NCBI RefSeq assembly: GCF_011046735.1
Contig: NZ_CP049258.1
Span: forward strand, 2,498,001-2,562,000
Length of the DNA: 64,000 nucleotides
Direction of reading: 5' to 3'
Origin: Nordella sp. HKS 07
Lineage (GTDB): Bacteria > Pseudomonadota > Alphaproteobacteria > Rhizobiales > Aestuariivirgaceae
The translations under genes were made by a program, and so were the position numbers. Positions 37,858 through 59,752 of the stretch are shown here, piece after piece. Position 1 is the stretch's first letter; each line of letters opens with the position of its first letter. A model generated the notes under the pieces. It did not search any database. It saw only the letters and a program-made list of their open reading frames with translations, and was not told the DNA's origin.

Positions 37858-37871
37858 TTGATCACGATCAA
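37858..37871. promoter_or_regulatory. FNR/FixK-type operator (DUF1488 pseudogene)
   Basis: TTGATCACGATCAA, a perfect TTGAT-N4-ATCAA site, 61 bp upstream of the broken DUF1488-like gene (minus strand). Confidence 0.75.
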
Positions 37872-37954
37872 TTTGATCGCGGAAAGTCTACCCACGTATG
37901 ATACCATCAGGAATGCTCCCCCCGAACGAAATGGGAGAGCCGTTGACGGCATCG

Positions 37955-38860
37955 TTAAACCAACGACCCATTCGTTCTGGTCAGCAGGCCGGGGAAATGC
38001 GAACTGCACGCCATTACATGAGTAATGGCGGCCGCGTCGTAATCGTCGCCCGAGCGGTATTCCTCGAAGTACCGGTTGAGCGCCGCGACCCGCTCGGGGC
38101 TTGCGCCGACCGCCTGAAGGCCGACCGACACGCCGTAATTGGTAAAAGCGAAACGAATGCGGGGCTGTCGGGGCTCGCGGCAGAAGTAACCTGGCCGCTG
38201 CCACATCCGGTCGAGCATCGTGAGGCAGCGCCGCCGCTGCTGCCGGGCCCAGGGCTCGTCGGGAAAGAAATGGCTCATCCACAGCATCATTCCGATTCCC
38301 AGATCCTGGGTAATGACGAGATCGTCGACGGTCCGGTCGATAAGCCCCGCCATCTCGGCAATCTCTTCGCCGAGAGCGGCTTCGTCGAGCATCCGGTAGG
38401 ACACATAGCCGTCGAAGGCATCGAGCGCTCCCAGGCCATAGCCCGGATAAGGGCCGCTCAGATCTTCCTTCATTTTCCAGATGACACCGCGCCCCGGCAG
38501 CACAAATGCGCGGTGAATCTGCTTGACTAGCTGGATGCCCTTGTCGCGGTACCTCCCATCATGACGCGCGAGCACGGCCAGCGCATAGATCCACATGGCG
38601 AGATAGTGGAAATATTGCCCGTCACGGTCGGGCTCCTCGCCGATCCGGATACCGCGCCGGCGACCCAGCACGCGATCGACCTCAGCGACGACCCAATGGG
38701 CCTCATCGATGAATTCCGGTTGCTCCAGGGTTTCGGCCAGCGAGACGAGGAGAACGACGCCGAATGCATCCGTCCACAAATAGCGCAACCCATTCGGCCA
38801 GATGCGGCGCTCGCGCATCCAGCTGAGTTTTGCCAGCACATAGACGGTGTCTGCGAGCAT
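37955..38860 (-). CDS. Helical repeat protein of unknown function
   Basis: 301 aa. The ATG at 38860 overlaps the stop of the upstream gene as TGATG. The protein is rich in Trp, Tyr and Leu helices: LRYLWTDAFGVVLLVSLAET, DGQYFHYLAMWIYALAVLAR, GPYPGYGLGALDAFDGYVSY, MMLWMSHFFPDEPWA. The spacing suggests an alpha/alpha-toroid like glycan-processing or terpenoid-like barrels, but no family is recognised. No signal peptide is seen. It is the third gene of a USP / methyltransferase-esterase unit. A decayed part copy lies at 32610-32720. Confidence 0.75.
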   Translation of the reverse strand: MLADTVYVLAKLSWMRERRIWPNGLRYLWTDAFGVVLLVSLAETLEQPEFIDEAHWVVAEVDRVLGRRRGIRIGEEPDRDGQYFHYLAMWIYALAVLARHDGRYRDKGIQLVKQIHRAFVLPGRGVIWKMKEDLSGPYPGYGLGALDAFDGYVSYRMLDEAALGEEIAEMAGLIDRTVDDLVITQDLGIGMMLWMSHFFPDEPWARQQRRRCLTMLDRMWQRPGYFCREPRQPRIRFAFTNYGVSVGLQAVGASPERVAALNRYFEEYRSGDDYDAAAITHVMACSSHFPGLLTRTNGSLV

Positions 38861-40860
38861 CACAGGCCAAAAGGATAGGTGTCGGGAAGACCGGCGAGTT
38901 CGGTGGTGTCGAAGGGCGATACCGCGGCGGTGCGGTCAAACCAGATGTACTCGTCGAATTGCCGCGGCAACACCGCCTGGAAATAATGGCTGGCAAGCTC
39001 CGTATCCGGGCGGTAGATGACGCCGATCGCGCGTTCGAGGCGTGGTTTGATCAACGCCCGTCGCAAGTCACCCGGCGCGGCGGATCCCAGGGGAAGAAGA
39101 AAATTCGCAATTGCCGCTTCGTGGCACAGGCGCTCGTAGCTCGCGGGATGCGCGGGGCGCACCGACTTGATTTCCATCGGTCCATCCCAGTCCGGGGCGG
39201 CGGCCACCTTCCCCGAGTCAGTCCCGAACCCAATCGTATAGAGCGCGTCGCCGAATGCCTCGCGGCACAATGCGCCTATATTGGTTTCTCCGCGCGCCGC
39301 CATCTCGGTCGCCCGGGCATTGCCGACATGGGAGTTGTGCGCCCAGACGATGGCCTTGGCATCGGGCCCATGATGGGCGAGCAGCGCGTTGAGCGTCTCG
39401 AACATATGCGTGTCGCGCAGATTCCACGAAGCGCGCGAGCCATAATACATGATGCGATAGTAAAGTTCGGCACTGGCGATGAGCCGGGCATTGTGTACGG
39501 CATCGAAGTATCGTTCCCCACCCTCCGCCATGTAGACATTCTGTTTGATCAGGATGTCCTTGAGCATTCCTACGACATCTCTCTCGCAGGTGCGGTAGGA
39601 GCCGGTGAGGGCCGCATAGCCATAAGCGGCGGGATCAGTCTGCCACGGCGTCAAACAGGCATAACGCTCGCGCGCATTGCGCGCTGTCGCGGGATCGACG
39701 CCTTCGAGATAGCGAAGAACTTCGTGGATAGAAGTATAGAGGCTGTAAATGTCGAGCCCGTAAAAGGCGGTACGCCGATGCAGCTTGTGTGCACGATTGC
39801 GGTGGCGCAGCCAGTCAACAAAGCTGCGCACCTCGTTGTTGCGCCACATCCACTGCGGAAAGCGGGCGAAGGCGGTCCACTCGCGTGGCGAATATTCGAA
39901 GTGGCGAACGTAATGGTCGATGCGCGCGGCGTCAGGCCAGTCGCCCTCAATGGCAACAAAGGTGAAACCCTTCGTCTCGATGAGCGCCCGCGAGATGCGC
40001 TCGCGCATGCGGTAGAATTCCGAAGTGCCGTGGGTTGCTTCCCCGATGAGAACCACTTTCGCGTTGCCGATCCGGTGCAGGAGCGGGCTGAAATCGGCGT
40101 CGTCGATCGTGTCGAACGGCACGCTCGCCGATGCAATGAGCCGTGCAACATCACCTTCCGGTTTCCGGGTTTTCCGAACCGGCCGGGCAAAGGCGGCGAG
40201 TTCGCCCTCCTCAGGCAACCAGCCCTGTTCACCGATCAGCGGGACAAACCGGACGTCGGCGATGTCCTCGGTTGTGAATTCCGTTTCGGATCGCCGCGTT
40301 ACCCGCACCAGCTCCTGGGCGCGTGCGTCCGTGCCGACGGGTATGACCAGCCTGCCGCCGACCTTCAGCTGCTGTTTGAGTGTGGCGGGCACGCTGGGGC
40401 CACCGGCCGCCACGACAATAGCGTCATAAGGCGCATGATCCGCCCAGCCCAAAGTGCCGTCGCCATGCAGCACGTAAACATTGTCGTACCCAAGGTCGGC
40501 CAGACGGCTCGCCGCCTTCTCGGCCAGTTGTCCGATGCGCTCGACGGTATAGACCTCGCCGGCAATGCGCGACAGAACCGCGGCGGCGTATCCCGAACCG
40601 GCGCCGATTTCGAGCACGCGCTCGCCGCCTTTCAGACCAAGCGCCTCGACCATGAAAGCTACGATATAGGGTTGAGAGATGGTTTGCTCGGCCTCGATCG
40701 GCAAAGGCGAATCTTCATAGGCGAATTCCTGAAGCGCCTGGGGAACGAAGGCCTCGCGCGGCACTTCGCGAAGGGCATCGAGCACTTGAGCCGACCGGAC
40801 GCCGCGTGCGGCGATTTGATGCTCGACCATATCCCGGCGCAATTGAGTAAAATCAGGCAT
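38860..40860 (-). CDS. Protein-isoaspartate methyltransferase fused to erythromycin-esterase-like domain
   Basis: 666 aa from ATG 40860 (MPDFTQLRRDMVEHQIAARG). Residues about 1-215 are a protein-L-isoaspartate O-methyltransferase: REAFVPQALQEFAYEDSPLP, the SAM motif VLEIGAGSGYAAAVLSRIAG, and YDAIVVAAGGPSVPATLKQQ. Residues about 240-650 are an erythromycin-esterase-like domain: VVLIGEATHGTSEFYRMRER, FVAIEGDWPDAARIDHYV, AIVWAHNSHVGNARATEMA. The first repairs damaged aspartates; the second is usually an uncharacterised hydrolase rather than true macrolide resistance. Both catalytic sets look intact. It lies 40 bp after the USP gene and overlaps the next gene. Confidence 0.9.
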   Translation of the reverse strand: MPDFTQLRRDMVEHQIAARGVRSAQVLDALREVPREAFVPQALQEFAYEDSPLPIEAEQTISQPYIVAFMVEALGLKGGERVLEIGAGSGYAAAVLSRIAGEVYTVERIGQLAEKAASRLADLGYDNVYVLHGDGTLGWADHAPYDAIVVAAGGPSVPATLKQQLKVGGRLVIPVGTDARAQELVRVTRRSETEFTTEDIADVRFVPLIGEQGWLPEEGELAAFARPVRKTRKPEGDVARLIASASVPFDTIDDADFSPLLHRIGNAKVVLIGEATHGTSEFYRMRERISRALIETKGFTFVAIEGDWPDAARIDHYVRHFEYSPREWTAFARFPQWMWRNNEVRSFVDWLRHRNRAHKLHRRTAFYGLDIYSLYTSIHEVLRYLEGVDPATARNARERYACLTPWQTDPAAYGYAALTGSYRTCERDVVGMLKDILIKQNVYMAEGGERYFDAVHNARLIASAELYYRIMYYGSRASWNLRDTHMFETLNALLAHHGPDAKAIVWAHNSHVGNARATEMAARGETNIGALCREAFGDALYTIGFGTDSGKVAAAPDWDGPMEIKSVRPAHPASYERLCHEAAIANFLLPLGSAAPGDLRRALIKPRLERAIGVIYRPDTELASHYFQAVLPRQFDEYIWFDRTAAVSPFDTTELAGLPDTYPFGL

Positions 40861-40900
40861 GCCCGGCCGTCTCTCGTGAATGCTCAATATCGCCTCCGCT

Positions 40901-41680
40901 CTAATGCGACACGAAAACCGGCACCGAGAATTGGCGCAGCAGATCATTGGTCACGCCACCCAGCAGGGCCTCGCGAAAGCGGGAGTGGCTGTAAGCGCCG
41001 GCAACGACCATGTCGGCATCTTCCATTGCCCGGGAAGCAAACAGAGCCTCGATGACCGACAATTCTCCAGTATCGGGCCATCGCTCAACCTCGGCCTTCA
41101 GTCCATGGGCGAGAAGATGGTCACACAACAGCTTGATGTCGGCATCCCTCTCGTCCGAGGGCGGATCGAACGCAAAAAGCGATATCTGCCGGGCCTGCGC
41201 GAGGATCGGCATCGCATCATGGACGGCCCGCGTGGCCTGGCCGCTCGGGGACCAGGCAATGACGATATTCTGCAATGCCGGTTTCGGGATCCGTCTATGC
41301 GGCAGAACGATCATCGGAACGCCGGCCGACACCAACACTCCTTCAGGAACCGCCGGAAGGATCTTCCCCGCGGACTCGTTGTTGAGCTGCGTCGCTATGA
41401 GCAAATCGGCATAGTGCGCATACAGGTTTTTCCAGCCGATCGCTTCGCGGTCGGCGACCTTGAAGCGGCTGTCCAGGCGAGACGCTCGGGCCTTGGCTGC
41501 AAACACGTCTCCCACATTTTCCGCCCGTTCGGACCACTCGTTTGTGAACGCCTGGGGTGAGCTCACATCGACGCCGGTGAGCCTCGCGCGGTATTCTTGC
41601 GCGAGCGAGAGCGCGAAATCGAGACGGGCTTCGTTGTCGCGCGAACCATCGAGAAAGACGAGAATATCCCTATAGCTCAT
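40901..41680 (-). CDS. Universal stress protein (tandem UspA)
   Basis: 259 aa from ATG 41680 (MSYRDILVFLDGSRDNEARL). Two Usp domains: the first is short and diverged; the second has NIVIAWSPSGQATRAVHDAM and the nucleotide-loop-like end VVAGAYSHSRFREALLGGVT-NDLL, close to the GxxGHSxxxxxxxGS pattern. USPs aid survival in starvation, hypoxia and oxidative stress. A FNR/FixK-type site lies 60 bp upstream. It heads an operon with the methyltransferase-esterase fusion and the helical protein. Confidence 0.9.
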   Translation of the reverse strand: MSYRDILVFLDGSRDNEARLDFALSLAQEYRARLTGVDVSSPQAFTNEWSERAENVGDVFAAKARASRLDSRFKVADREAIGWKNLYAHYADLLIATQLNNESAGKILPAVPEGVLVSAGVPMIVLPHRRIPKPALQNIVIAWSPSGQATRAVHDAMPILAQARQISLFAFDPPSDERDADIKLLCDHLLAHGLKAEVERWPDTGELSVIEALFASRAMEDADMVVAGAYSHSRFREALLGGVTNDLLRQFSVPVFVSH

Positions 41681-41740
41681 CACAGGCTCCGCTCCAGCAG
41701 CAATCCTTGATCCCTCTGCCACGATGAAGAGGAGGTGTCT

Positions 41741-41754
41741 TTGACATTGATCAA
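41741..41754. promoter_or_regulatory. FNR/FixK-type operator (USP operon)
   Basis: TTGACATTGATCAA, one base from the perfect site, 60 bp upstream of the USP start at 41680 (minus strand). Confidence 0.75.
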
Positions 41755-42377
41755 ATCGTGGCATGTCGGCACCTTCAGTGAGCGCCAAGAGGCTGCTGCT
41801 GCGTCTGATCTTGCAACGTCCGTGGAGTTCTAATGATGACGCAAACCGCAATATCAGCCGGTAGCCATAGCCTGCCAGAAAACGAGATCCGTGACGATCG
41901 ACGCTTATTGGCGCGCTGCGAACTATCTCACGGTGGGCCAGAACGGCCGTCTTTGACTTCGGTGTAGGCCAGCTAGAGCCTCCAGCCAGATACTCTGGAA
42001 ATCCGCCTCGGCCCCCCTTGGCGATATCAGCTACGGCGCCGCCCTTCCGGATCGCGAATTCGCGCCCTCGGCACCGCAACCATCTTCGGCTAATTCGCCG
42101 CCGCCTCGAAGGCCTTAACCGACTCGGTCATCGACTTTGGGTCAGCCACCAGCTTGGCCGCGTGGTCCGGCTTGGCAGACTTTGGCCACTTGAGCAACTC
42201 GACCGCTGCCCCCTCGGCTTGGCCGAGGAGTCGGATTGCGAAACCTAACAGGGCGACATATGCCATAGGTTGCCGGCCCTTTCTTTGAATCTAGCGAATA
42301 TAGCCTAGCCCTAGCGAGTACCGTTCCCGTCGACCTCAAGTCGCTGAAATTCTCCTCCGATAAAATCGCCGCGTTTG
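41755..42377. other. 620 bp without a gene; repeat D copy 1 and start of repeat B
   Basis: No gene seen. 41840-41871 (GCAATATCAGCCGGTAGCCA core) matches 48201-48232 with about 4 mismatches in 32; repeat B begins near 42314. Confidence 0.5.
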
Positions 42378-42605
42378 TTGATTTCGATCAAGCCCCTCCC
42401 TCACGCTCGCAGGATAGATTGTTCTATGGTCAGAGTTATGAATTCTTATGGTCTGGGACGGGTGATCGGCGCGGTGTTTGTCCTGCCGAGTTCTTTTCAA
42501 GCGGAACCCACTACGCTGAGCATGGTGCCCTTCTGGCAATTTCGCTGGATCAAGGACGAATGTCTGCCGGAATGATGTGCTATGCCACCTACAATGCTGA
42601 TAGCT
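42314..42605 (+). repeat. Repeat B, copy 1 (about 290 bp)
   Basis: Matches 48236-48525 at roughly 85-90 percent by eye, in direct orientation. It spans GTCGACCTCAAGTCGCTGAA, an FNR/FixK-type site, and the first 60 codons of a small secreted-protein gene. Confidence 0.85.
42378..42391. promoter_or_regulatory. FNR/FixK-type operator (repeat B copy 1)
   Basis: TTGATTTCGATCAA, a perfect TTGAT-N4-ATCAA site, 34 bp upstream of ATG 42426. Confidence 0.7.
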
Positions 42606-42785: not shown

Positions 42786-42799
42786 TTGATCTGGGTCAA
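42786..42799. promoter_or_regulatory. FNR/FixK-type operator (groEL paralogue)
   Basis: TTGATCTGGGTCAA, 59 bp upstream of the GroEL start codon at 42859 (plus strand). Confidence 0.75.
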
Positions 42800-42858: not shown

Positions 42859-44481
42859 ATGGCTCACAAGCAAGTACTCTTCCACTCAGCTGCCCGGGAA
42901 AAAATTCTTCGTGGCGCGTCACAGTTGGCGGACGCGGTTCGCATCACGCTTGGCCCACGCTCGAAGTCGGTCCTAATCGAAAAGAAGTGGGGCACGCCGG
43001 TCGTCTGCAACGACGGTGTAACCATCGCAAAGGAGTTCGATCTCAAGGATGCGGAAGAAAATCTCGGCGCCCGCATGCTACGCCAGGCGGCTGAGAAGAC
43101 CGGCGATATGGTTGGCGACGGGACGAGTACGTCGACGATTCTCGCGCATGCAATGTTTGCCGATGGCGTGCGGAACGTGGTCGCCGGTGCAAGTGCCATT
43201 GAGATCAAGCGTGGCTTGGATAGAGCTTTGCTGCGCGTAACCAAAACGCTGCGGGAAATCTCGCGCCCGGTCAAGACGCGGCTTGAGAAGGAACAGGTTG
43301 CTGCGATCTCGGCGCACAATGACCCGGCGATCGGCAAGCTCGTTGGCGAGGCCATGGAAAAGGTCGGAGGAGAAGGCGTTATTACCGTCGAGGAGTCAAA
43401 GACCACGGAAACCACGATGGAGGTCGTCGAGGGCATGCAGTTCGACCGCGGCTTCCTTTCCCCATACTTCGTCACGGATCCAGAGAAAATGGAGGCGGTG
43501 CTGGAAGACCCGATGGTTCTTCTCGTCGACAGGAAGATATCGACGCTTCATGATCTGATCAAGCTTCTGGAGGCCGTCGCCAAGGCCGGCGCGGCGCTCT
43601 TGGTGATTGCCGAGGAGGTGGAAGGCGAAGCGTTGGCAACCCTTGTGCTCAATCACGTGCGCGGAATTTTCCGCAATTGCGCGGTGAAGGCGCCTGCCTT
43701 CGGCGACCGACGCAAGGCCATCTTGCAGGATATCGCGATCCTCACTGGCGCCCAGGTGATTTCCGAGGATCTTGGAGTGAAGCTCGAGAATGTGACGATG
43801 GAACAGCTCGGCCGGGCGAAGCGCGTCCTCGTCAACAAGGATCATACAACTATTATCGGCGGCGCCGGCGATGGGGACGCGATCAAGAATCGCGCAGACC
43901 AGTTGCGCCGGGAGATAGAGGATACGACGAGCGATTATGATCGGGACAAGTTGAAGGAACGTCTGGCTAAGCTCGCGGGCGGTGTGGCTGTGATCCGTGC
44001 CGGTGCGCCGACCGAGGCGGAAATGAAGTCCAAGAAGGAAGCCCTTGATGACGCCATAAGCGCGACCAAGGCGGCCGTCGCGGAAGGCATAGTCCCGGGC
44101 GGAGGCCTTGCCGTGTTAAAGTGCATCGCCGAGGTGACTGAGGAGGAAAAGACCTGCGAGGGAGACGAGCGGACTGGTGTGCAAATTCTGAAGCGCGCCC
44201 TGGAAACGCCAGTGCGCCAGATTGCCGAGAATTCCGCTGTCGATGGCGGCGTCGTTGTCGCCAGGATGATCGAGGGAAAGGGCAATTTTGGTTTCGATGC
44301 GGGCCGAAAGGAATATGTCGACTTGATTGCGGCCGGAATCATCGACCCGACAAAGGTCGTTCGAATTGCACTGGAGAACGCAGTGTCTGTCGCGAGCATA
44401 CTGCTGCTAACCGAAGCGACAATGACTGACATTCCGGAGCCGATCAAGGAGCGAATGGCCGAGCCGGAAATGTCCATGTAA
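42859..44481 (+). CDS. GroEL-type chaperonin, divergent paralogue
   Basis: 540 aa from ATG 42859 ([20 protein letters not shown]), preceded by GAAGGTGA. Equatorial ATP motifs are present ([52 protein letters not shown]); the usual GDGTTT motif reads GDGTST. The C-terminus ends [14 protein letters not shown], with no Gly-Gly-Met tail, and no groES lies next to it. In Hyphomicrobiales, extra GroEL copies are often specialised, including FixK/NifA-controlled ones. The operator 59 bp upstream suggests low-oxygen induction. Confidence 0.95.
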
Positions 44482-44920: not shown

Positions 44921-44934
44921 TTGACACAGGTCAA
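44921..44934. promoter_or_regulatory. FNR/FixK-type operator (USP)
   Basis: TTGACACAGGTCAA, 63 bp upstream of the USP start at 44998 (plus strand). Confidence 0.7.
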
Positions 44935-44997: not shown

Positions 44998-45837
44998 ATG
45001 GCCTACAAGACCATCCTTGCTAGTCTGAACGAAGTGTCTCAGGTGCGCACCGTCTTGAGCGCCACCGCGACGATCGCCCGCAATGAAATGGCTCATGTGA
45101 TTGGCCTTTACGTCATTCCGGCGATAGAGCTTCAGGTCGGTTCCGAGATCCAGGTTGTCCCGGTGGAGAACGATGAGCTGCAGAAATACTTCAAGCAGCA
45201 GGAGAAGGCGGTCAAAGCGGCCTTCGAAAGCATGATTCTGGAAGACGGGATTGAGGGTGAATTTCGCGTGATCGAGGCCTCGGAGCCTTATATTGCCGCC
45301 ACTATCACAGAGGAATCCAGAGAAGCCGACCTGGTGATCGTCGGCTATTCCAGTTCCGTCAGCAGTCGGGCGCTTGGCGCAGATTTCTCCGAGCGGCTGG
45401 TGATCGGGTCCGGCCGGCCGACGCTTGTAGTGCCGCGCGACGGCCACCGCGGATTTGCTCATGACCGGATCCTGGTGGGTTGGAACGGCTCACGGGAGGC
45501 GGCCCGCGCTATCTTTGACGGCGTTCCATTGCTTCAGCGTGCCGATGAGGTTCTGGTCGCAATCGTCGGCACCGAGTTGGAACATAGATTGCGCGCCGAG
45601 ACACGCCGAGAGGGCCTTGTAAGAACGCTTCTGCGCCACGGCGTCCATGCGCGCGCCATCGATCTCGACAGTTCGCGTGAAGCGGGGAAGGTTCTCCTTG
45701 AAAGAGCTGAAACCCGTGATGTCGGTCTCATCGTGATGGGCGCCTATGGTCACGCGCGGCTGCGCGAGTTTATCTTGGGAGGCGCGACCCGTTCCGTGCT
45801 GAAAGGCATGAGGTGCCCCGTCCTGTTCTCCCATTGA
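44998..45837 (+). CDS. Universal stress protein (tandem UspA)
   Basis: 279 aa beginning MAYKTILASLNEVSQVRTVL after AAAGGGTGACAT. Two full Usp domains: the first ends in DLVIVGYSSSVSSRALGADF, the second runs from ILVGWNGSREAARAIFDGVP to VGLIVMGAYGHARLREFILG-GATRSVL, with the ATP-type Gly/His pattern. It is a close paralogue of the USP at 51323. Its operator suggests oxygen-limited induction. Confidence 0.93.
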   Translation: MAYKTILASLNEVSQVRTVLSATATIARNEMAHVIGLYVIPAIELQVGSEIQVVPVENDELQKYFKQQEKAVKAAFESMILEDGIEGEFRVIEASEPYIAATITEESREADLVIVGYSSSVSSRALGADFSERLVIGSGRPTLVVPRDGHRGFAHDRILVGWNGSREAARAIFDGVPLLQRADEVLVAIVGTELEHRLRAETRREGLVRTLLRHGVHARAIDLDSSREAGKVLLERAETRDVGLIVMGAYGHARLREFILGGATRSVLKGMRCPVLFSH

Positions 45838-46145: not shown

Positions 46146-46159
46146 TTGACCGGGATCAA
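46146..46159. promoter_or_regulatory. FNR/FixK-type operator (ABC protein)
   Basis: TTGACCGGGATCAA, 116 bp upstream of the ABC protein start at 46276; a weaker TTGATATGGATCGA lies at 46107. The larger spacing makes this less sure than the other sites. Confidence 0.6.
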
Positions 46160-46275
46160 CAGGCGGTGGCGGAAATGCCGCAAAGGCCGAGCGGTTGCGG
46201 GGTTTAGGTCGCCGGCCCAAAACACGGGGTCAGCCGCTATTCGAGATAGATGACTGCAGCGAGGCATGCCGATCC

Positions 46276-49426: not shown

Positions 49427-49676
49427 CATGTCGGCGAGCATTGCGTGCATGGGGACTGCTTGCGCCTTCACCGCTTTGGCATATTCAAGGCTTCGGCCTG
49501 TGCTTCAGTGATTGTAAGCGTGCTCTTGAGGACGGCAAGAAGGCGTGTTTGCCGCAATAATATGCGTCTGCTGGTCGTCCCCGTCATGCCTTGATCCGCC
49601 ATCCCGCTGATCTGAAGTCCCGTACAGCGCGACGCAGCTTGAATGCGCATGATGGTCTCTGAAGGTTTGTCGGGTT

Positions 49677-49710
49677 GGAGCGCGAGTCAATTACGAAATG
49701 GTCGCGCTCC
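49677..49710 (-). terminator. Hairpin after Hsp20 gene
   Basis: GGAGCGCGA and TCGCGCTCC, perfect 9-bp arms, 34 bp beyond the Hsp20 stop. No U-run follows, so it could be a weak terminator or an mRNA-stabilising hairpin. Confidence 0.35.
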
Positions 49711-49743
49711 AGCCTGTCGGGGGCGGTCTGCTCTCACTGTCGA

Positions 49744-50271: not shown

Positions 50272-50332
50272 TTTATCCTCCTTTCAATAAGGGGCTATCA
50301 TTATAATTATGCCATCTCTGTTTGATGGTTCC

Positions 50333-50346
50333 TTGATCTCGATCAA
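50333..50346. promoter_or_regulatory. FNR/FixK-type operator (Hsp20)
   Basis: TTGATCTCGATCAA, a perfect site, 61 bp upstream of the Hsp20 start (minus strand). Confidence 0.8.
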
Positions 50347-50383
50347 GCCGGTCTGAATTTTCGGTGGTATTTCTGCGAGGCTA

Positions 50384-50975: not shown

Positions 50976-50989
50976 TTGATCCTGGTCAA
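50976..50989. promoter_or_regulatory. FNR/FixK-type operator (divergent: membrane protein / arcD remnant)
   Basis: TTGATCCTGGTCAA, 46 bp from the minus-strand start at 50929 and 43 bp from the plus-strand ATG at 51033. It could serve either gene. Confidence 0.7.
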
Positions 50990-51322: not shown

Positions 51323-52165
51323 TCAGTGCGAGAATAATACCGGACAATTCATGCCACTGAGAACAAACCGGGTCGCTCCGCCGAGAATCAGCTCACTCAG
51401 ACGCGAATGACCATAAGCTCCCATCACAAGGAGGCCGGCTCCGCTATCCGATATCTTGGTCAGTAGGGCCTCGCCGGCCTCCCTCCCCCCCGTGGAGAGG
51501 GGTTCGATCACCGCCTTGACGCCATGGCGCGACAAAGCCGTGGCAAGATCGACGCCGGGCAGGCTACCAGGACTGGTATACTCCATTTCCGGATCGACCC
51601 AGACTACGCGGACTTCATTTGCACCTGTCAATAGCGGCACGCTGTCGAAAGCGGCCCGCGCCGATTCACGCTTTCCACTCCAGCCGATGATGACGAGTTC
51701 GGCCACCGCGCTCGTCCCACCTTTCCTTGGCAAGACAAGGGTCGGTCTGCCAGTAGACAACAGGATCTGCTCGACGAAAGCGCGACCCGTGACGGACAAT
51801 CCCCCATCCTCCGGGGGCTGGTTGATGATCGCGATATCAGATCGGCGCGCATAGTCAATTACATGATTCGTAATGCTGGGAGTTATCGAATCCACCAAAA
51901 CGAAGTCGCTACTGATACCCGCCACTTGCGCGAGCGATTCGAACAAGTCTCGCACGGATTTCTCGGCCTTTTGGTAAGTCTCCCGATTGCCTTCGAAGAC
52001 GACCGGCATGCCAAAGCTTGTCCCAGCATAGATCTCGACAGCAGGGATGACATATAGGCCCTGGAGATGGGAATCAAAATTGCGGGCGAGCTCCGCCGCG
52101 CATGTAAGGAGAGCCTCGTTGCGCTCGAGATCATTCAGGCTCACCAGAATCGTCTTGTATGTCAT
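51323..52165 (-). CDS. Universal stress protein (tandem UspA)
   Basis: 280 aa beginning MTYKTILVSLNDLERNEALL, a close paralogue of the USP at 44998 (shared GLYVIPAVEI-type segments). The second domain has LVIIGWSGKRESARAAFDSV and GAGLLVMGAYGHSRLSELIL followed by GGATRFVLSGMNCPVLFSH. The gene is monocistronic as far as visible, with an FNR/FixK-type site 60 bp upstream. Confidence 0.93.
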   Translation of the reverse strand: MTYKTILVSLNDLERNEALLTCAAELARNFDSHLQGLYVIPAVEIYAGTSFGMPVVFEGNRETYQKAEKSVRDLFESLAQVAGISSDFVLVDSITPSITNHVIDYARRSDIAIINQPPEDGGLSVTGRAFVEQILLSTGRPTLVLPRKGGTSAVAELVIIGWSGKRESARAAFDSVPLLTGANEVRVVWVDPEMEYTSPGSLPGVDLATALSRHGVKAVIEPLSTGGREAGEALLTKISDSGAGLLVMGAYGHSRLSELILGGATRFVLSGMNCPVLFSH

Positions 52166-52225: not shown

Positions 52226-52239
52226 TTGACTTAGGTCAA
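52226..52239. promoter_or_regulatory. FNR/FixK-type operator (USP)
   Basis: TTGACTTAGGTCAA, 60 bp upstream of the USP start at 52165 (minus strand). Confidence 0.7.
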
Positions 52240-52417: not shown

Positions 52418-52908
52418 AGGCAAAACTGCTCGATGTTGTCGGCCAGATCAAAATCATGCACTTCCACCGATCCTCGGCAGCTGCGCAGCAATGTCCTGGT
52501 TGCAAGGCGTTCTTCGACCAGGCCATCAAGCTGGACGAGCAGTAGAAATTCACCGCCGGCAACGGCTTGCGCCAAACGTTTGGCATGCGCGGGAAAGAGC
52601 CAGCGTCCCAACAATCCTTCGAATGCCGAGGCATCCTGTGATATGCTCTTCGGCAAGACAGGTCCGCATGCGAGTGCAACAATTCGGTCCTGCCCTGTCT
52701 GGAAGTCGAGGGAGCGCGACTTCCCATTCACGATGGCGCTGAGTTCAGCGGATCTCTCCCGGCCGTGAGTAAAGCTCGCTTCGCGCCCGACGATAGAGAT
52801 CGCTTGTGGATCAAGCTCATTGTGGACCAGTTGCCGCAGGGCACGCAAGGCGTCGTCGAGATTGGCCACGACCGCGAGCGCGAAGCGCCGATGTGCCGCC
52901 TCTTTCAT
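52399..52908 (-). CDS. Uncharacterised protein coupled to the Crp/Fnr regulator
   Basis: 169 aa from the ATG at 52908, which overlaps the regulator stop as ATGA. It begins MKEAAHRRFALAVVANLDDA, with an alpha/beta ACT- or ferredoxin-like pattern (LRQLVHNELDPQAISIVGRE), and ends with several cysteines (LLRSCRGSVEVHDFDL, FCLCSQKT). No family recognised. Coupled translation with the regulator suggests it modulates or reports on that protein; this is inference. Confidence 0.7.
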   Translation of the reverse strand: MKEAAHRRFALAVVANLDDALRALRQLVHNELDPQAISIVGREASFTHGRERSAELSAIVNGKSRSLDFQTGQDRIVALACGPVLPKSISQDASAFEGLLGRWLFPAHAKRLAQAVAGGEFLLLVQLDGLVEERLATRTLLRSCRGSVEVHDFDLADNIEQFCLCSQKT

Positions 52909-53615
52909 GACTCTAGGCAATCGCCTGCCGCCAGTGCTTCCAGGCGTTCAATATCGAGGATAATGAGCTTGTGGACTTCCGGCAGCCGAATGATCCGCTT
53001 GACCTTCAGCTTGGTGAGATTCCGACTCACGGTCTCTATCGTCAGCCCCAGAAAATCTGCGATGTCGGACCTGCTCAACTCAAGGCGGATCGCGGGCGAA
53101 TTGTCCTGTCGGCGGTGCAACTCAAGAATAAAGGCAGACAGCTTCTCCATCGCGGAGCGACGGTTGAGAACGGCTATCTGGCCTAGCGCATTCTCGAGTT
53201 TCTTCAATAGAAGGCTTACGAGTTGCGGTGCCAGCGTTGGCTCGTCGCGCATGTGCCGATAAGCACTGTTCTGCTCTAAGCAGCGGAATCTCACATGAGT
53301 GATCGCTTCGGCACTGCAATGCCGTTCCGAGGTAGCTTCAAAGCCCACGATATCGCCGGCAAAGCGCAGGGAGATAATCTGACGACGCCCGTCGCTCAAC
53401 ACGTGATAGATGCGCACGAGTCCCGATTCAATCCGGTAGATTTTATGATTATCGTCTCCCTGATGATACAGATGCTGATGAGGATCTAGGCTGCATAAAG
53501 ATTGGCAAGATAGCAATTGATCGAATGTTTTCAGGCCTTTTGAGGACTCACCTGCGCTCACGATCTGGAGCGGGGGGCGGTAGTCGCGTTCTGAATCTGC
53601 TGCAAGGGTTAGCAT
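52905..53615 (-). CDS. Crp/Fnr-family regulator (FixK-like)
   Basis: 236 aa. A cyclic-nucleotide-binding-like beta-roll (HLYHQGDDNHKIYRIESGLV, DGRRQIISLRFAGDIVGFEA) precedes a Crp-type HTH: LSRSDIADFLGLTIETVSRN with recognition residues Glu-x-x-Ser-Arg, the pattern that reads TTGAT half-sites in FNR/FixK proteins. The four-cysteine Fe-S cluster of FNR is not present as such (only C37 and C41 in SCQSLC plus two later cysteines), so it resembles FixK- or DNR-type members more than FNR. It is the obvious candidate to bind the twelve sites in this island. Confidence 0.9.
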   Translation of the reverse strand: MLTLAADSERDYRPPLQIVSAGESSKGLKTFDQLLSCQSLCSLDPHQHLYHQGDDNHKIYRIESGLVRIYHVLSDGRRQIISLRFAGDIVGFEATSERHCSAEAITHVRFRCLEQNSAYRHMRDEPTLAPQLVSLLLKKLENALGQIAVLNRRSAMEKLSAFILELHRRQDNSPAIRLELSRSDIADFLGLTIETVSRNLTKLKVKRIIRLPEVHKLIILDIERLEALAAGDCLES

Positions 53616-53763
53616 GGTTCACTCCTGAGCATCTGTCCGGCCTCAGGAAGCTCTCCTTGCTTTGCCCGTGTTTGCCCCGATTGTGCCGGTTTGTGGCAAA
53701 TTGTGCGGGGTGGCCGGAATGGCGGGAATTGGGTTGGCTGATGCCGTCCCACCTGACGCCTTC

Positions 53764-53804: not shown

Positions 53805-53930
53805 AAGGCTCATACTCGCCCAGTAACTGGACCCGACAACGGTGCCAAATGCCTCGAATCCTGAACTGGCGAAGGCTCCCAGGCGTATCCTCCTGGAGCG
53901 CGCCCTCTCATAAAGCACTCAATCTTACTT

Positions 53931-54409
53931 TTACCGATCATGCGGAGGCGGGAAGAAGCGGCGCACCGCCAGGGCTTCAAGAAGGTTTTTTGACCAGCTG
54001 CGCTCAGCACTGGAACGGCCGACAATAGTCAGATCGTGGGTGCGAGCTGCCTTGATCAAACCCTCAATGCCTGCGGTTATTGGATTGGAACTCCAGCTTG
54101 CGGTCACTCGGTCCATGGCTGCCGCGCAAGTCACTTTCGGTATATTATTTATCTTGAGAAACGGCTCACGTGCGAGCGGGCATTCGCTATTGCGTCCTTG
54201 GCATTGAGCAGGGTCGTTCGGAGTGCGAGTTCTACGGCGTCGCCGCGTGCAAACTCGACATGAGGATTATAGTCCGCAGGATTTATCGCATTAATGGGAC
54301 TGTGAAGGAAATCGATATGGGCATTCAATGGCTTAGCAATAGCATACGCAGCGCCGAGCACTGCATCGTCGGTTTTCGTCCCGCTGACAGCAACCAATAT
54401 CGATTTCAT
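53931..54409 (-). pseudogene. Universal stress protein, frameshifted
   Basis: From ATG 54409 the frame reads MKSILVAVSGTKTDDAVLGA to NAKDAIANARSHVSRFSR and stops; the neighbouring frame resumes with FLKINNIPKVTCAAAMDRVT and GLIKAARTHDLTIVGRSSAE, the second half of a Usp domain, ending at 53931. One frameshift near 54150 breaks it, and the length is also shorter than the tandem USPs here. It still has a perfect operator upstream. Confidence 0.75.
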
Positions 54410-54463: not shown

Positions 54464-54477
54464 TTTGATGCAAATCA
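54464..54477. promoter_or_regulatory. FNR/FixK-type operator (USP pseudogene)
   Basis: TTGATGCAAATCAA, a perfect site, 54 bp upstream of the frameshifted USP (minus strand). Confidence 0.75.
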
Positions 54478-54485
54478 AACCCGCC

Positions 54486-56045
54486 TCACGGCGGTTCGCT
54501 GAGCACGGCTTCCAAGGCGCTGCGTAGATCAGCTAGCCGATATGGCTTACGAAGCAATTTTATACTGCCGAGATTCTCCGCCCGGAGGAGATCTTCGGCG
54601 TAGCCTGAAGTCAGCAGTATCCGAATTCCGGGATATATTTCCCTTGCCTTTCTGGCAACGTCATATCCGGTAAGCCCCCCTGGCAGCACGAGATCGCTAA
54701 ACAGCAAATCCACCTTGAGCCCGCTTTCAAGGAATTTGATAGCGCTCGCCCCATCCGACGATTCATGGATCTTGAATCCGAGCGTCACAAGGCGGGTAAC
54801 CGTTAAATCACGGACACCGTCGTCGTCTTCGACAACAAGGACGGTTTCGCGGCGCTTTCGCGACAGTTCGGCATCAACTGGAACGGCATCGGTATCCATC
54901 GTCCCGTTCGCCCGAGGCAAATAGATGTTGATAGTCGTTCCGTGACCAAGCTCGCTATAGATCGTCACATGGCCGCCAGACTGCTTGGCAAAGCCGTAAA
55001 CCATGCTAAGGCCAAGGCCGGTCCCGTGCCCCCTTGTCTTCGTCGTGAAGAACGGTTCGAAGGCGCGATCCCTGACTTCCGCCGGCATGCCAGTGCCAGT
55101 GTCAGAGACAGAAATTTGCACGTAGTCGCCATGCGGCAGTTCAATTGTGTCTCCGCTCTTGACTTCTTCCATGCGGATATTTCGTGTTTCGACGACAAGC
55201 TTCCCGCCCTTTGACATGGCGTCGCGTGCATTGATAGCTAAATTGACCAGAGAGCTTTCAGCCTGAGTGGGATCCACCTTTACCTGCCACAGGTCCGGCG
55301 CAAGGACGGTTGACAGTGAGATATGCTCACCCAGCGTGCGGCGAAGCATACTGGTGACATTCAGTACCAAGTCGTTAGTTTCAAGAATTTCCGGTTCAAG
55401 ATGACTGCGTCTGGCAAATGCGAGAAGGCGGGACGTAAGCTTCGCTGCAAGGTCAGCGGCCTCCTGCGCATCTCTTAGCATTTTGTGCACGTGCTCTCCC
55501 TGTACGCTCATCTCGATGAGTTCCAGATTTCCCGTGATCACAGTCAGGAGATTGTTGAAATCATGTGCAATGCCGCCCGTCAGCTGGCCTATTGACTCCA
55601 GTCGTTGCGCTTGGGCAAGCTTACGCTCGCTTTCCCGCAAAGCTTCTTCGACCCGCTTTCGGTCGCTGAGATTGGTGATGATGCCCGCAAAATAACGTTT
55701 TCCTCCTGCAACAAACTCGCTGACCGCCAAATCGAGTGGGAAGGTGGTCCCATCTTTGCGTTTGCCCATCACTTCCCGGCCGATACCGATAATCTTTCGC
55801 CGTCCGGTGGACAGATAGTTCGAAATATAGCTGTCATGTTCGCCGTGGAACGGTTCAGGCATCAGCATGCGAACATTCTGTCCAATCAGCTCGCCTGCCG
55901 GATAGCCGAAAATCCTCTCGGTCGCCGGGTTGACCGAATCGATCATTCCGCTGATATCTATCGTAATTATAGCCGCGACAGCCGAGTTCAGAATGGCCTC
56001 GAGCTTCGAGGCTTCCGGCCCGCCGTTCGGCAGTTTCTGTTGCAT
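54486..56045 (-). CDS. FixL-like PAS hybrid sensor histidine kinase
   Basis: 519 aa from ATG 56045; a TTG at 56099 is possible. Order: PAS (residues about 10-125), HisKA, HATPase, receiver. The PAS closely follows FixL heme-PAS: NPATERIFGYPAGELIGQNV, MPEPFHGEHDSYISNYLSTG with the proximal-heme His position (RHDSYISRY in Bradyrhizobium FixL), and IIGIGREVMGKRKDGTTFPL with the GIGR arginine. The kinase His is in GGIAHDFNNLLTVI; N/G boxes NLAINARDAMSKGG and GTGLGLSMVYGFAKQSGG follow. The receiver has VEDDDGVRD and phospho-Asp in LLFSDLVLPGG. It probably senses oxygen; its output partner is not encoded here. Confidence 0.9.
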   Translation of the reverse strand: MQQKLPNGGPEASKLEAILNSAVAAIITIDISGMIDSVNPATERIFGYPAGELIGQNVRMLMPEPFHGEHDSYISNYLSTGRRKIIGIGREVMGKRKDGTTFPLDLAVSEFVAGGKRYFAGIITNLSDRKRVEEALRESERKLAQAQRLESIGQLTGGIAHDFNNLLTVITGNLELIEMSVQGEHVHKMLRDAQEAADLAAKLTSRLLAFARRSHLEPEILETNDLVLNVTSMLRRTLGEHISLSTVLAPDLWQVKVDPTQAESSLVNLAINARDAMSKGGKLVVETRNIRMEEVKSGDTIELPHGDYVQISVSDTGTGMPAEVRDRAFEPFFTTKTRGHGTGLGLSMVYGFAKQSGGHVTIYSELGHGTTINIYLPRANGTMDTDAVPVDAELSRKRRETVLVVEDDDGVRDLTVTRLVTLGFKIHESSDGASAIKFLESGLKVDLLFSDLVLPGGLTGYDVARKAREIYPGIRILLTSGYAEDLLRAENLGSIKLLRKPYRLADLRSALEAVLSEPP

Positions 56046-56122
56046 GATCCCAGGCTGGATTTGAGTTCTATAGGCCAGCGTAGCATTGGATTGACCCAAC
56101 GCGGTAGTGGAACTCTAGACAG

Positions 56123-56969
56123 CTAATGGGACAGGAATAACGGCACATTGCAGTGCCGCAGAAGAGCCCGCGTAACGCCCCCGAGGATCAGCTGCCGTAT
56201 CCGCGAATGCGCAAAACCACCCATCACGATCAGGTCGACAGCCGAGTGCTGGGCATATTGTCTGAACGCTTGGGCCACGTCGCCGTTATCCGCATGAATG
56301 GACTTGGCAATAATCTTCACCTTGTGGGAAAGAAGGTGTTCGACCAGCCTCGCGCCAGGGATCGAACCAGAGAGGTCCTTTTCACCCTCTATTTGGATCA
56401 CCTCGACCATTTCTGCAATGCGCAGGATCGGCAACGCGTCAAAAGAGCGCGCGCGCTGCCTTGCTGCTACCGTCCCAGGCAACAACAACATGCCGTGCAC
56501 TAAATGAGGTGAAGCCAGGAGGAACAACGATGACCGGACGTCCACTATCCAACAGTGCTGCCTCTATCAGATCCCGGTCGATGTCGATTGCGTCGGATTC
56601 GCTGTCTAGAATGCACAAATCATGCAAGCGGGTCTCTTTGGTAAACCCTTCGACCAGCTGTAAACGCTTGAGCTGAGGCGAACTGACGGAAGCCGCAACA
56701 CCGATTGCACGGGCCTGCTCGCTAATGCGCTCGGTCACCGTACGCGCCAACTCTGCAACATGACGATTTTCCGAGGCCACGATGCCAGCTACGATACCGC
56801 TGACAAATGAATGAGGCAGGGTAAGCTTCACCGACGGAGCGTATACCGTAATTTGCGCTCCTGCTAGCTTTGCGAGTGAAAGGCCATAGCCGATCGCGGC
56901 GGTCGGCTCATACTTGTTCTCAACCGACAGGCCGATGAGAATATTCTCGATATTGTGAAGTTGACGCAT
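56123..56969 (-). pseudogene. Universal stress protein with one frameshift
   Basis: MRQLHNIENILIGLSVENKY to VVVAWDGSSKAARALF, then a stop; the next frame continues SFDALPILRIAEMVEVIQIE to the normal USP C-terminus DLIVMGGFAHSRIRQLILGG, VTRALLRHCNVPLFLSH. A single-base slip near 56480, in a short T-run, separates the halves, so it may be a real frameshift or a sequencing error. Otherwise a full tandem USP of about 281 aa. A weak site (GTGATCCAGCTCAA, 57009-57022) lies 39 bp upstream. Confidence 0.75.
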
Positions 56970-57070: not shown

Positions 57071-57787
57071 TTACGGGCCAGCCGATGCGGCCTGATTCTG
57101 CATAATCTCGATCTGCAGCTCCTGGATCTCCGTCAACCTTAGCCACTGGTTGAACAGGAGGTGGTCGACCTTATCCTGCAAGTGACGGATCTCAAGCTCC
57201 GCCTTCAGGTTGACGCGATAATCGTTGAGCGACCGCATCCGATCCTTGGCCTCCTGCCTTCGCTGGCTCATCATGATGATGGGGGCCTGTATTGCGGCGA
57301 TGCACGACAAGATGAGGTTGAGCAGAATGAAGGGGTAAGGATCGAAGCTCTTGGCACCTGCGATATTTGCCAGGATCCAGAAACCCAGCCCGAGAGCGAA
57401 GAAAATCAGGAAGCGCCAGCTTCCGCCGAAGCTGGCCAGATCATCCGAAGCGCGCTCCGCGAGCGTGCGCTGGGCGCCATAGTCCTCTTCGATATTCGCC
57501 GAGATCAGATCACCCTCGGTGAGACTACGCGCCACCTGCTGTTCGAACTCGGAAAGCTCGCCCCGTTCGGCGCGCAGCAGTTCCTCCACATAGACGGTAC
57601 AGTGGCGATTGACCTCTTGACGGCTGATCACCGCATCCGAAGTCAGCGTGGGGTGACCTTTTCTGATCCTCTCGACGATGGCATGCCTCAGCAGTTCCAG
57701 CGGAACAAGTTCCGAGGCGGGATATACGATGCCGCTGATCGCGCATTTTTGTTCTGCTCTCGAGATTCGCTTCTTCACGTCTCTCAT
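57071..57787 (-). CDS. DUF1003 membrane protein
   Basis: 238 aa. DUF1003 signature: RASDDLASFGGSWRFLIFFA, LGFWILANIAGAKSFDPYPF, ILLNLILSCIAAIQAPIIMM and SQRRQEAKDRMRSLNDYRVN, with two membrane helices and a C-terminal coiled coil (EIRHLQDKVDHLLFNQW). Upstream residues 10-60 include a short cytoplasmic domain (ISGIVYPASELVPLELLRHA). Function unknown; common near stress genes. It is the last of a four-gene unit (spacings 11, 6 and 6 bp). Confidence 0.9.
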   Translation of the reverse strand: MRDVKKRISRAEQKCAISGIVYPASELVPLELLRHAIVERIRKGHPTLTSDAVISRQEVNRHCTVYVEELLRAERGELSEFEQQVARSLTEGDLISANIEEDYGAQRTLAERASDDLASFGGSWRFLIFFALGLGFWILANIAGAKSFDPYPFILLNLILSCIAAIQAPIIMMSQRRQEAKDRMRSLNDYRVNLKAELEIRHLQDKVDHLLFNQWLRLTEIQELQIEIMQNQAASAGP

Positions 57788-57793: not shown

Positions 57794-58786
57794 TCACATC
57801 GTCAGTACCGCAGCCCCGATCAATCGGCCCTCGCGAAGGTCCGCCAGGGCCTGATTGGCTTCAGCAAGCACGTATGTGGACACCTGCGTCTCAATCCCGA
57901 TCTGCGGAACCAGCCGGAAGAAGCTGTCGCCGTCCTCACGCGTCAAATTGGCGACGGAGACGATTTGACGCTCTTCCCAGAGTAGTCTGTAGGGAAAGCT
58001 TGGAATATCACTCATGTGAATGCCTGCGCATACGACGCGGCCACCCTTGCGCACCGCCTTGAGCGCGCGTGGTACGAGGGCACCGATCGGCGCAAATATT
58101 ATGGCGGCATCGAGGAGCTCAGGGGGCGTCTCATCGGACGCGCCGGCCCAGACGGCTCCAAGTTGGCGCGCAAATGACTGGCTTTCCACATCGCCGGTGC
58201 GTGTGAAGGCGAAAATACGTCTTCCTTCCGATTTTGCAACTTGCGCGATGATATGGGCGGCAGCCCCGAAGCCGTACAGTCCCAGGCGCTTAGCATCGCC
58301 CGCCATCCGAAGAGAGCGCCAGCCGATCAGACCGGCGCACAGCAGCGGCGCCAGGGCCGGATTCGACTTTCCCTCTGGCAGGGCGAAGACGTAGCGGGCG
58401 TCTGCGAGGGCGTGCGTTGCATATCCGCCATCCCGCGTGTAACCGGTGAACAGTGGATGGTCGCAGAGATTCTCCTGCCCGGCCACGCAATAAGCGCATT
58501 TGCCGCACGTGAAGCCGAGCCAAGGAACGCCGACCCGCTGATGCAGCTCCAAACTGCGGACGTCGGGGCCGAGTTCTTCTACGTAGCCCACGATCTCGTG
58601 GCCGGGTACGAGAGGGAGCGGTGCCCTGGGCAATTCACCGTCGACAACATGAAGATCGGTCCGGCAAACACCGCAGGCACTCACTCTGACACGAACCTCG
58701 CCACGTCGCGGAATGGGCATCGGGCGCTCGCGCATAATTAGCGGCTGACCATATTCAACCAGGGTCATGGCGTGTGATACGATCAC
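57794..58786 (-). CDS. Zinc-dependent alcohol dehydrogenase
   Basis: 330 aa MDR-family enzyme from GTG 58786 (ATG 58768 is an alternative). Catalytic zinc: CGVCRTDLHVVDGELP and GHEIVGYVEELGPDV; structural zinc cysteines in CGKCAYCVAGQENLCDHPLF; GLYGFGAAAHIIAQVAKSEG is the cofactor fold. The sequence is AdhP/propanol-preferring-like. It probably oxidises or reduces short alcohols and aldehydes, which fits fermentative or oxygen-limited growth. It is third in the operon beginning at 59688. Confidence 0.92.
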   Translation of the reverse strand: MIVSHAMTLVEYGQPLIMRERPMPIPRRGEVRVRVSACGVCRTDLHVVDGELPRAPLPLVPGHEIVGYVEELGPDVRSLELHQRVGVPWLGFTCGKCAYCVAGQENLCDHPLFTGYTRDGGYATHALADARYVFALPEGKSNPALAPLLCAGLIGWRSLRMAGDAKRLGLYGFGAAAHIIAQVAKSEGRRIFAFTRTGDVESQSFARQLGAVWAGASDETPPELLDAAIIFAPIGALVPRALKAVRKGGRVVCAGIHMSDIPSFPYRLLWEERQIVSVANLTREDGDSFFRLVPQIGIETQVSTYVLAEANQALADLREGRLIGAAVLTM

Positions 58787-58792
58787 AGTCTT

Positions 58793-59203: not shown

Positions 59204-59214
59204 CGGGCATCTCC

Positions 59215-59688
59215 TCAGCGGGGGGTAGCATCAGTGGCGGCTGTGAAAGTGAGAATCACCGGCAGATGCAGATTCAGATTATCGTCTGGAATCTTGGTGA
59301 GATCCTTATCGATACATTCGGCGAGTTTTGCCGTGAGCGCGGGCGATAAGGAGCCTCGGAGCACCTTCGCCAGCCTAGCCGGAGCGGCGAAAACCAGTTT
59401 GTCAAAGCTAGCGACCGTCTCGTCTTCGCGAAGATCGGCGGCAAGGGCCCGTATGAAGTCCGCTTCGACCTTGTCGCGCGGGTCGCTGCGCGTTTCTACG
59501 GCATGCCGGGTAGGCGATCCGCTCTCACAGACACGTCCCGGCCTGTCGCGGGCGAGCTCGGATGATTTCTCATGTATGTGGGCCGAGACGAATTTCCGAA
59601 ACGTCTTGAAATGGTTGGGGCCAATGCGCTCGATATAGCGAACACGACCGCCATCCGCGATTATGTAGAGTGTCCTTGGTGCGCGCAT
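59215..59688 (-). CDS. Host-attachment (baeRF-like) protein
   Basis: 157 aa from ATG 59688, preceded by AGGAGG; the frame extends to 59709. RTLYIIADGGRVRYIERIGP at the N-terminus and FIRALAADLREDETVASFDK, LVFAAPARLAKVLRGSL follow the 'host attachment protein' family, related to the eRF1/Pelota-like baeRF folds. The name comes from an Agrobacterium attachment locus; molecular function is unclear. First gene of a four-gene unit with an operator 50 bp upstream. Confidence 0.88.
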   Translation of the reverse strand: MRAPRTLYIIADGGRVRYIERIGPNHFKTFRKFVSAHIHEKSSELARDRPGRVCESGSPTRHAVETRSDPRDKVEADFIRALAADLREDETVASFDKLVFAAPARLAKVLRGSLSPALTAKLAECIDKDLTKIPDDNLNLHLPVILTFTAATDATPR

Positions 59689-59738
59689 GACGAGCCTCCT
59701 TTCTTGCATAACTTTGAGAGTGTTGGAAGGAAAGCGCT

Positions 59739-59752
59739 TTGACTTGGGTCAA
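59739..59752. promoter_or_regulatory. FNR/FixK-type operator (host-attachment/ADH operon)
   Basis: TTGACTTGGGTCAA, 50 bp upstream of the operon start at 59688 (minus strand). Confidence 0.75.

Follow-up and report, generated by a model that had tools for sequence, protein, structure and literature searches.

The 64,000-nucleotide stretch of Nordella sp. HKS 07 analysed here in full (contig NZ_CP049258.1, positions 2,498,001 to 2,562,000; hereafter, the window) contains a block of stress genes with twelve palindromes of the form TTGAY-N4-RTCAA, which correspond in sequence to the "anaeroboxes" of FNR/FixK regulators. We propose, with a probability of about 0.75, that a low-oxygen survival regulon exists in part of the genus, that this block represents one of its copies, and that the regulon would be activated by a FixK-type protein via an hFixL–FxkR-type relay. 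Since a FixK-like gene, a hybrid FixL-like kinase and an OmpR-type response regulator are associated with it, the system can be likened to the cascade of hFixL, FxkR and FixK known from strain 3841 of Rhizobium leguminosarum and strain CFN42 of R. etli (PMC7888657, PMC4999443, PMC7769827).

According to the proposed scheme, an hFixL–FxkR-type phosphorelay, presumably with low oxygen as its signal, would switch on the activator gene at 52905 through a diverged K-box (53672–53697). The activator would then bind the anaeroboxes, centred at about −41.5, and switch on genes of universal stress proteins (USPs), Hsp20, GroEL, protein repair, alcohol dehydrogenase (ADH) and transport. The kinase gene ends a gene run headed by an anaerobox; if this run is read through, FixK would raise the level of its own sensor, giving positive feedback. 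The module is present in several copies, and the window copy, having lost its FxkR-like gene, would rely in trans on the copy at 5.71 Mb.

Exact matches to the palindrome number 12 in the window, against 0.14 expected (100 shuffles, maximum 1). All of them are located between 37858 and 59752, and the rest of the window contains none, in line with the sequence-only reading, which had seen no sites in the first 30 kb. That reading had listed all twelve, eleven with exact coordinates; the site placed at 54464 begins at 54465. When at least four of six Shine–Dalgarno matches were required for a start codon, six sites lay 59–63 bp and the remainder 33–55 bp from a start, much as had been claimed, with the reservation that several sites had multiple candidate starts, among which we picked one. 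The sites do not represent twelve independent events, as several of them sit in duplicated DNA: sites 42378 and 48293 fall within a 320-bp repeat (42297–42604 and 48211–48525, 87% identical); sites 52226, 54465 and 59739 are in stretches having copies at 5.71 Mb; site 37858 is duplicated at 5.69 Mb (5693969), and site 50333 belongs to a stretch duplicated at 1.44 Mb.

In the whole genome (7.18 Mb, one contig), 59 distinct sites were found, versus 4 for the reversed control. More than half of them (33) belong to three islands: the window with 12 sites, 3165685–3217525 with 11, and 5693969–5739218 with 10. The islands thus hold 33 sites in about 119 kb, versus 26 in the other 7.07 Mb. When 59 sites were placed at random 5000 times, a 21.9-kb interval such as that occupied in the window never received more than 5, compared with the 12 observed, and the description of the block as dense therefore holds. 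The window is denser in sites than the genome at large; equal density elsewhere, which would have refuted the earlier proposal, is thus not what the genome at large shows, but two further islands mean that the window is not alone. The claim that the regulon is self-contained fails on two counts. Two other islands have 11 and 10 sites, and 47 of the 59 sites lie outside the window, so the idea of a unique block was rejected; in addition, the response regulator is missing from the window copy and is present in the 5.71 Mb copy and in the islands of both congeners described below. The outlying sites 3217512 and 5739205 are inside called open reading frames (ORFs) and may be chance matches. Three anaeroboxes were also noted at genome positions 1056637–1076634, near ABC-type and SbmA/BacA-like transporter genes, and three at 1435089–1442781, near a radical-SAM gene, ADH, USP and Hsp20 genes.

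Comparison with congeners supports the functioning of these sites. Orthologs of the regulator were found in the congeners G001 (71% identity) and G002 (68%), each inside a site-rich block of 47–50 kb, which accounts for at least 21 of the 33 sites of the G001 genome among the matches listed and for 20 of the 35 sites of G002. Neither a comparable regulator nor a full-length kinase match was found in G003 and G004, the latter being an 87% complete draft; G003 contains 12 scattered sites, and G004 contains 15 sites. For 37 ORFs of the G001 and G002 islands with a homolog in the window genome, the presence or absence of a site agrees in 34 cases (both, 15; neither, 19; congener only, 3; home only, 0; Fisher test, 9e-8), bearing in mind that related genes are not fully independent in these counts and that divergent genes can share one site. 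Put otherwise, the home homolog carries a site for 15 of the 18 site-bearing congener ORFs, versus none of the 19 site-less ones. The ORFs were chosen with our own ORF picker, only the best home hits with at least 45% identity over half of the length were used, and an ORF was scored as site-bearing if a site fell between 300 bp ahead of its longest start and 160 bp within it.

The placement of the sites is of the activator type. In this geometry, the −10 element is located about 22 bp past the site, and a TATAAT-like hexamer at offset 21 ranks top of 60 offsets both in the home islands (78 flanks) and in the congeners (82 flanks); in the home flanks, offset 33 ranks second. At eight isolated sites, no −10-like peak was observed at offset 21, and the maximum is elsewhere. 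When a strong Shine–Dalgarno sequence was required, 12 of the 17 starts in the home genome and 8 of the 19 in the congeners were 50–65 bp past the site, whereas random anchors gave a mean of 0.8 such starts (maximum 3 and 4) of a mean of 5.9 and 5.7. The FNR/FixK-type regulon with activator sites that had been proposed is supported by these results. A classical FixK target, ccoN, is also part of the G002 island, where a site precedes it by 60 bp and FixG- and CcoI-like genes lie beyond it. Further genes of the two congener islands encode phosphoketolase, arginine deiminase and a protein resembling acyl-CoA synthetase. In line with the proposal, FnrN-dependent microaerobic expression has been described for an Hsp20 gene that carries an anaerobox (PMC11784457). 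There is no exact site near the single ccoN gene of G003.

The regulator gene (52905–53615, minus strand) encodes a protein of the Crp/Fnr fold with the Glu-x-x-Ser-Arg recognition helix (ETVSR), as had been stated before. The Fe–S cysteine motif is absent from it and its best PDB match is FixK2 (103 bits), features which indicate a FixK-type protein. Seven loci retrieved by the regulator search (six of Devosia and one of an alphaproteobacterial metagenome-assembled genome; 37–39% identity, one 30%) were unusable as orthologous islands: over about 20.6 kb of each locus, the site counts are 1, 1, 1, 1, 0, 0 and 3, with 0 for the control.

The FxkR K-box is the repeat GTTACA-N4-GTTACA, found at −62 in R. 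leguminosarum (PMC7888657). With up to two mismatches, this canonical form was not matched in the window or in the stretches at 5.71 Mb and 3.2 Mb; a conserved box was therefore sought, and a 26-bp element, GCCACA-N4-GGCACA-N5-GGCAA, was identified upstream of the regulator (53672–53697, minus strand). It occurs without mismatch ahead of each of the five regulator genes (window, 5.71 Mb, 3.2 Mb, G001 and G002), and among 120 genomes there is no further exact match, so that each of the five precedes a copy of the regulator. Matches with one mismatch were found once each in seven genomes; their spacers differ, and no helix word of the E-x-x-S-R type is present in the surrounding 1.8–3.0 kb. We read the element as a putative diverged K-box: its repeats are spaced at 10 bp like those of the FxkR K-box, though their letters differ, and the upstream regions of FixK-like genes in other genomes contain GTTACA, GATACA or GTCACA repeats with the same period. 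The window box aligns with boxes from 13 other stretches. Several aligned boxes have a third element, ATTACC, TTCACC, GGCACC or CGTACC, represented in the window by GGGCAA; it is clear in some rows only and was not seen in G052, G068, G051 and others. When the repeat was scored in eleven upstream regions, C or T being permitted at two positions chosen after the window box had been seen, the full score was reached in four regions and by none of 300 shuffles. The scores of G001, G002 and G005 were attained by 2–4% of the shuffles, and those of G034, G068, G062 and G060 by 22%, 25%, 19% and 79%, respectively.

The OmpR-type gene is located near the fixK-like and hfixL-like genes in the 5.71 Mb copy (5712134–5712868), G001 and G002, and its product shares 46.6% identity with FxkR9 of R. 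leguminosarum 3841, a value that is not decisive by itself. In a tree of 29 sequences, the response regulators encoded beside FixK-like genes form two neighbouring groups: one includes the known FxkR proteins and G051, and the other includes the window genus, Terrarubrum flagellatum, G005, G012, G034, G052 and G068. An earlier, smaller tree had two outgroups only, and the assignment to FxkR was weakened by the wider one. The response regulator and FixK-like genes form divergent pairs in six further genomes (G005, G012, G034, G051, G052 and G068), which suggests that the cascade is spread more widely than would be expected from the origin in the Rhizobiaceae ancestor proposed in PMC4999443. The kinase, response regulator and Crp genes are also found together on the T. 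flagellatum plasmid, beside ccoNOQP and hemN and near a USP gene, the Crp protein having 27% identity to the window regulator. An exact K-box was noted beside an FxkR-like gene in Sinorhizobium meliloti 1021 pSymA (L115:21142, record 621141), where the tblastn match is in two pieces; this may be due to a frameshift in that record.

The kinase (54486–56099, minus strand) has PAS, HisKA and HATPase domains and a C-terminal receiver, i.e., the make-up of hFixL. The designation "FixL-like" made earlier is thus appropriate as regards the PAS domain; at the same time, this is a hybrid kinase, with Lys in place of the His that binds heme in FixL. This ligand is His200 in the FixL of Bradyrhizobium japonicum and His194 in that of S. 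meliloti (PMC10765370). In an alignment that contained a single FixL, the corresponding residue is Lys in the window kinase and its copy at 5.71 Mb, in the G001 and G002 orthologs and in the kinases of Terrarubrum, R. sullae and R. etli 8C-3. It is Arg in the ATCC 14479 kinase of R. leguminosarum and in the R. leguminosarum 3841 gene product that we take for hFixL9 from its position next to fixK9a. The missing His speaks against the window kinase being a FixL-type heme sensor, and classical FixL heme sensing is unsupported at the residue level. Given that microaerobic expression was reduced in a double hfixL mutant of strain 3841 (PMC7888657), sensing of low oxygen would be compatible with the absence of this residue. 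The kinase gene is the last of the run Host_attach, ADH, DUF1003, USP, kinase behind an anaerobox in the window, the 5.71 Mb copy (where parts of the run are broken) and G001. In G002, the run starts at ADH, and the nearest upstream site (141188) is about 940 bp off, with two short opposite-strand ORFs intervening.

The copies of the module differ in their state of preservation. Window region 51315–65013 corresponds in pieces to 5709325–5726675 with 92–96% DNA identity, and 48932–50797 corresponds to 1442381–1444202 with 90.5% identity. Decay between the window and 5.71 Mb copies is reciprocal. The window has whole genes of ADH, one USP and FadL, which the 5.71 Mb copy carries in split or shortened form, whereas the window lacks 1.4 kb that at 5.71 Mb carries the response regulator gene and a part of a USP gene; the joint is located at 53877–53967. 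The FixK-type gene is open in two copies (52905 and 5710930), which are 6% apart, while its copy at 3.2 Mb matches only in three pieces. Inside this disrupted copy there is a 106-bp stretch (genome 3202326–3202431) that is 94% identical to 2579180–2579285 beyond the window and possibly represents a small mobile repeat.

A number of observations weigh against the proposed reading. In a tree of 12 sequences, the regulator stands apart on a long branch, and it has 37–39% identity to FixK9a and FixK9b, with one value of 33%. The response regulator clade is near the known FxkR proteins and not inside them, with three context-unchecked proteins in between and weak support, and the response regulator also shows 41–45% identity to twelve OmpR-type proteins whose context is different or unchecked. 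Two of six letters in each of the two half-sites of the box differ from GTTACA. No exact site lies within 180 kb of either ccoN gene of the window genome (1828143 and 6809634). The stretch of R. etli 8C-3 that encodes a kinase with 58% identity has 0 sites in 35.7 kb; the R. sullae stretch has 13 sites in 41.5 kb. Finally, the box of the window, like those of the 3.2 Mb copy, G001 and G051, contains GG-N10-GC, and this leads to the main rival reading of the element, namely a sigma-54 promoter that would make the regulator answer to an RpoN activator instead of FxkR. The 3.2 Mb box reads CTGGCAC and the G051 box reads TTGC; we raised our estimate for this possibility because the G051 box fits too. 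Still, the usual TT ahead of GC is absent in the window genus, and seven of the eleven boxes checked have the same 10-bp repeats without GG-N10-GC. Six of these seven adjoin an FxkR-like gene (Terrarubrum, G005, G012, G034, G052 and G068; for the boxes of S. meliloti and R. sullae, the neighbouring genes lay outside the check). We regard the sigma-54 promoter as improbable.

The anaeroboxes might instead be worked chiefly by the Fe–S protein FnrN, a direct sensor of oxygen, the FixK-type gene of the islands being minor or dying. A separate FnrN-like protein is encoded at 5114917; it carries CAACEARHRGVC plus the identical ETVSR helix and could bind the same sites, and one motif is common to FnrN and FixK (PMC4999443). 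Moreover, an FnrN-like gene is present in both congener islands (G001:C17:22709–23437 and G002:C22:136068–136892), with CxxCx7C motifs and two anaeroboxes at the start, as in R. leguminosarum, where fnrN is likewise preceded by dual boxes. On the other hand, the FixK-type gene has stayed open in its two copies despite their divergence, all genus members with large site islands (G000, G001 and G002) have it, and G003, with an FnrN-like gene and no FixK ortholog, has just its scattered sites. FnrN as the chief regulator thus seems rather unlikely. It might also be supposed that the window block is a decaying leftover of little function and that only the other copies matter, given the relics of a USP gene and an FnrN-like gene, the split USP gene and the missing FxkR-like gene. 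Against this, the genes split or shortened at 5.71 Mb (USP, ADH and FadL) are whole here, the 3.2 Mb regulator is in three pieces, and GroEL and three USP genes with sites at 59–63 bp are open in the window. A mere leftover is therefore hard to credit, and a FixK-activated regulon remains the preferred reading.

The system shares with the rhizobial hFixL–FxkR–FixK cascade the hybrid FixL kinase, the OmpR-type response regulator, the FixK protein without Fe–S cysteines, the direct-repeat box before fixK and the anaerobox targets including ccoNOQP; ADH and USP genes are also nearby on pRL9. It differs in the letters of the box, in the response regulator not being nested among known FxkR proteins, in the position of the kinase gene in an anaerobox-headed run instead of a K-box operon with fixK, in its mainly stress-gene targets and in the several partial chromosomal copies. 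A similar trio of an hFixL-like kinase, a FixK-like gene and a response regulator is found in a stress cluster on a plasmid of R. leguminosarum ATCC 14479 (NZ_CP030763.1), surrounded by genes of Hsp20, three USPs, CBS and BON proteins and P-type ATPases, with 11 anaeroboxes in 31.6 kb (control 0); unlike the window block, it is plasmid-borne and has a canonical K-box, another gene order and a kinase with 46.7% identity. The lxa locus of Burkholderia cenocepacia is likewise a large block, induced by low oxygen, with six USP genes and metabolic, stress and transport genes (PMC9733578, PMC9104464); it belongs to another bacterial class and comprises about 50 genes in one locus, the comparison having covered gene content and induction.

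As a tentative conjecture, which we hold to be somewhat less probable than not, the cascade would be an order-wide survival switch older than Rhizobiaceae and extending beyond them, with a three-half-site K-box that co-diverged with FxkR, a PAS sensor that has lost the heme ligand of FixL and responds in some other way to low oxygen or to redox state, and scattered islands that all depend in this genome on the single FxkR-like gene left. Apart from this conjecture, the proposed reading would connect the microoxic cascade of rhizobia, known chiefly from work on nodule symbiosis, with a large stress-survival block outside the rhizobia examined. The diverged operators form a natural series from which the joint evolution of a response regulator and its box may be studied. 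The lack of the heme His both in the gene product taken for the oxygen-responsive hFixL9 of strain 3841 and in the window kinase raises a sharp question about oxygen sensing by hFixL.

That the block is variably present within the genus is supported. Its mobility, as earlier suggested, has only circumstantial evidence in its favour: the duplicated copies, the lower G+C content, the absence of the regulator ortholog in two congeners and a serine recombinase gene (Resolvase and Recombinase domains, 30032–31723) next to tRNA-Ala (29680–29755) upstream of the block. The G+C content drops from 63% before the tRNA-Ala and recombinase genes (29680–31723) to 58–59% past that point. No attachment repeat of the tRNA 3′-end was found in 104 kb, the transfer genes not having been the object of a dedicated search. 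Next to an 89-bp repeat (34189–34277 and 48092–48180, 93% identical) there are pieces of ORFs, possibly the remains of insertion sequences; no Pfam family matches the ORF at 34236.

The gene content had been listed correctly before: three unsplit USPs, Hsp20, GroEL, the PCMT/erythromycin-esterase-like protein and ADH. Anaerobox 1 (37858–37871) is 61 bp from the ATG of a 32-codon relic ORF. Anaerobox 2 (41741–41754) is 60 bp from the ATG of a USP gene (40901–41680, minus strand; longest ORF 40901–42079), downstream of which a PCMT and erythromycin-esterase-like protein is encoded (38860–40947, minus). Anaerobox 3 (42378–42391), with a start at 34 bp, precedes a relic of the gene of a 171-aa protein. 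The ATG of the GroEL/Cpn60 paralogue (42859–44481, plus; the G002 homolog is 91% identical and site-bearing too) is 59 bp from anaerobox 4 (42786–42799), and the start of another USP gene (44998–45837, plus; site-bearing homologs in G001, 60%, and G002, 75%) is 63 bp from anaerobox 5 (44921–44934). A TTG start at 35 bp from anaerobox 6 (46146–46159) opens the gene of an SbmA/BacA-like ABC transporter (46195–48015, plus), whose paralogue at the 1.06 Mb locus is 61% identical. Anaerobox 7 (48293–48306) has a start at 33 bp, that of the 171-aa protein without a Pfam family (48340–48855, plus), which has site-bearing homologs in G001 and G002.

The Hsp20 gene (49744–50271, minus; copy at 1.44 Mb 95% identical) has its ATG at 61 bp from anaerobox 8 (50333–50346), with CATAAT at offset 21. 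Anaerobox 9 (50976–50989) has starts at 46 bp and, on its other side, at 43 bp, and is adjacent to the gene of a 181-aa protein (50384–50929, minus; longest ORF to 51016; G001 homolog 77% identical and site-bearing). Anaerobox 10 (52226–52239), with TATCCT at offset 21, is 60 bp from the ATG of a USP gene (51323–52165, minus) that consists of two ORFs in the 5.71 Mb copy. Anaerobox 11 (54465–54478), immediately past the kinase gene end, has at 55 bp a USP relic in two frames (53931–54409, minus), which is a single open frame at 5712865–5713734. Anaerobox 12 (59739–59752) is 50 bp ahead of the run leading to the kinase gene: the Host_attach/baeRF-family protein (59215–59688; longest ORF to 59709), zinc alcohol dehydrogenase (57794–58786), the DUF1003 protein (57071–57787) and a USP gene split in two frames (56123–56969), all on the minus strand. 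At the window end, an FnrN-like gene relic starts (63955–64000, plus) and extends to 64248; its top match is the G002 gene, with 53% identity over 73 aa.

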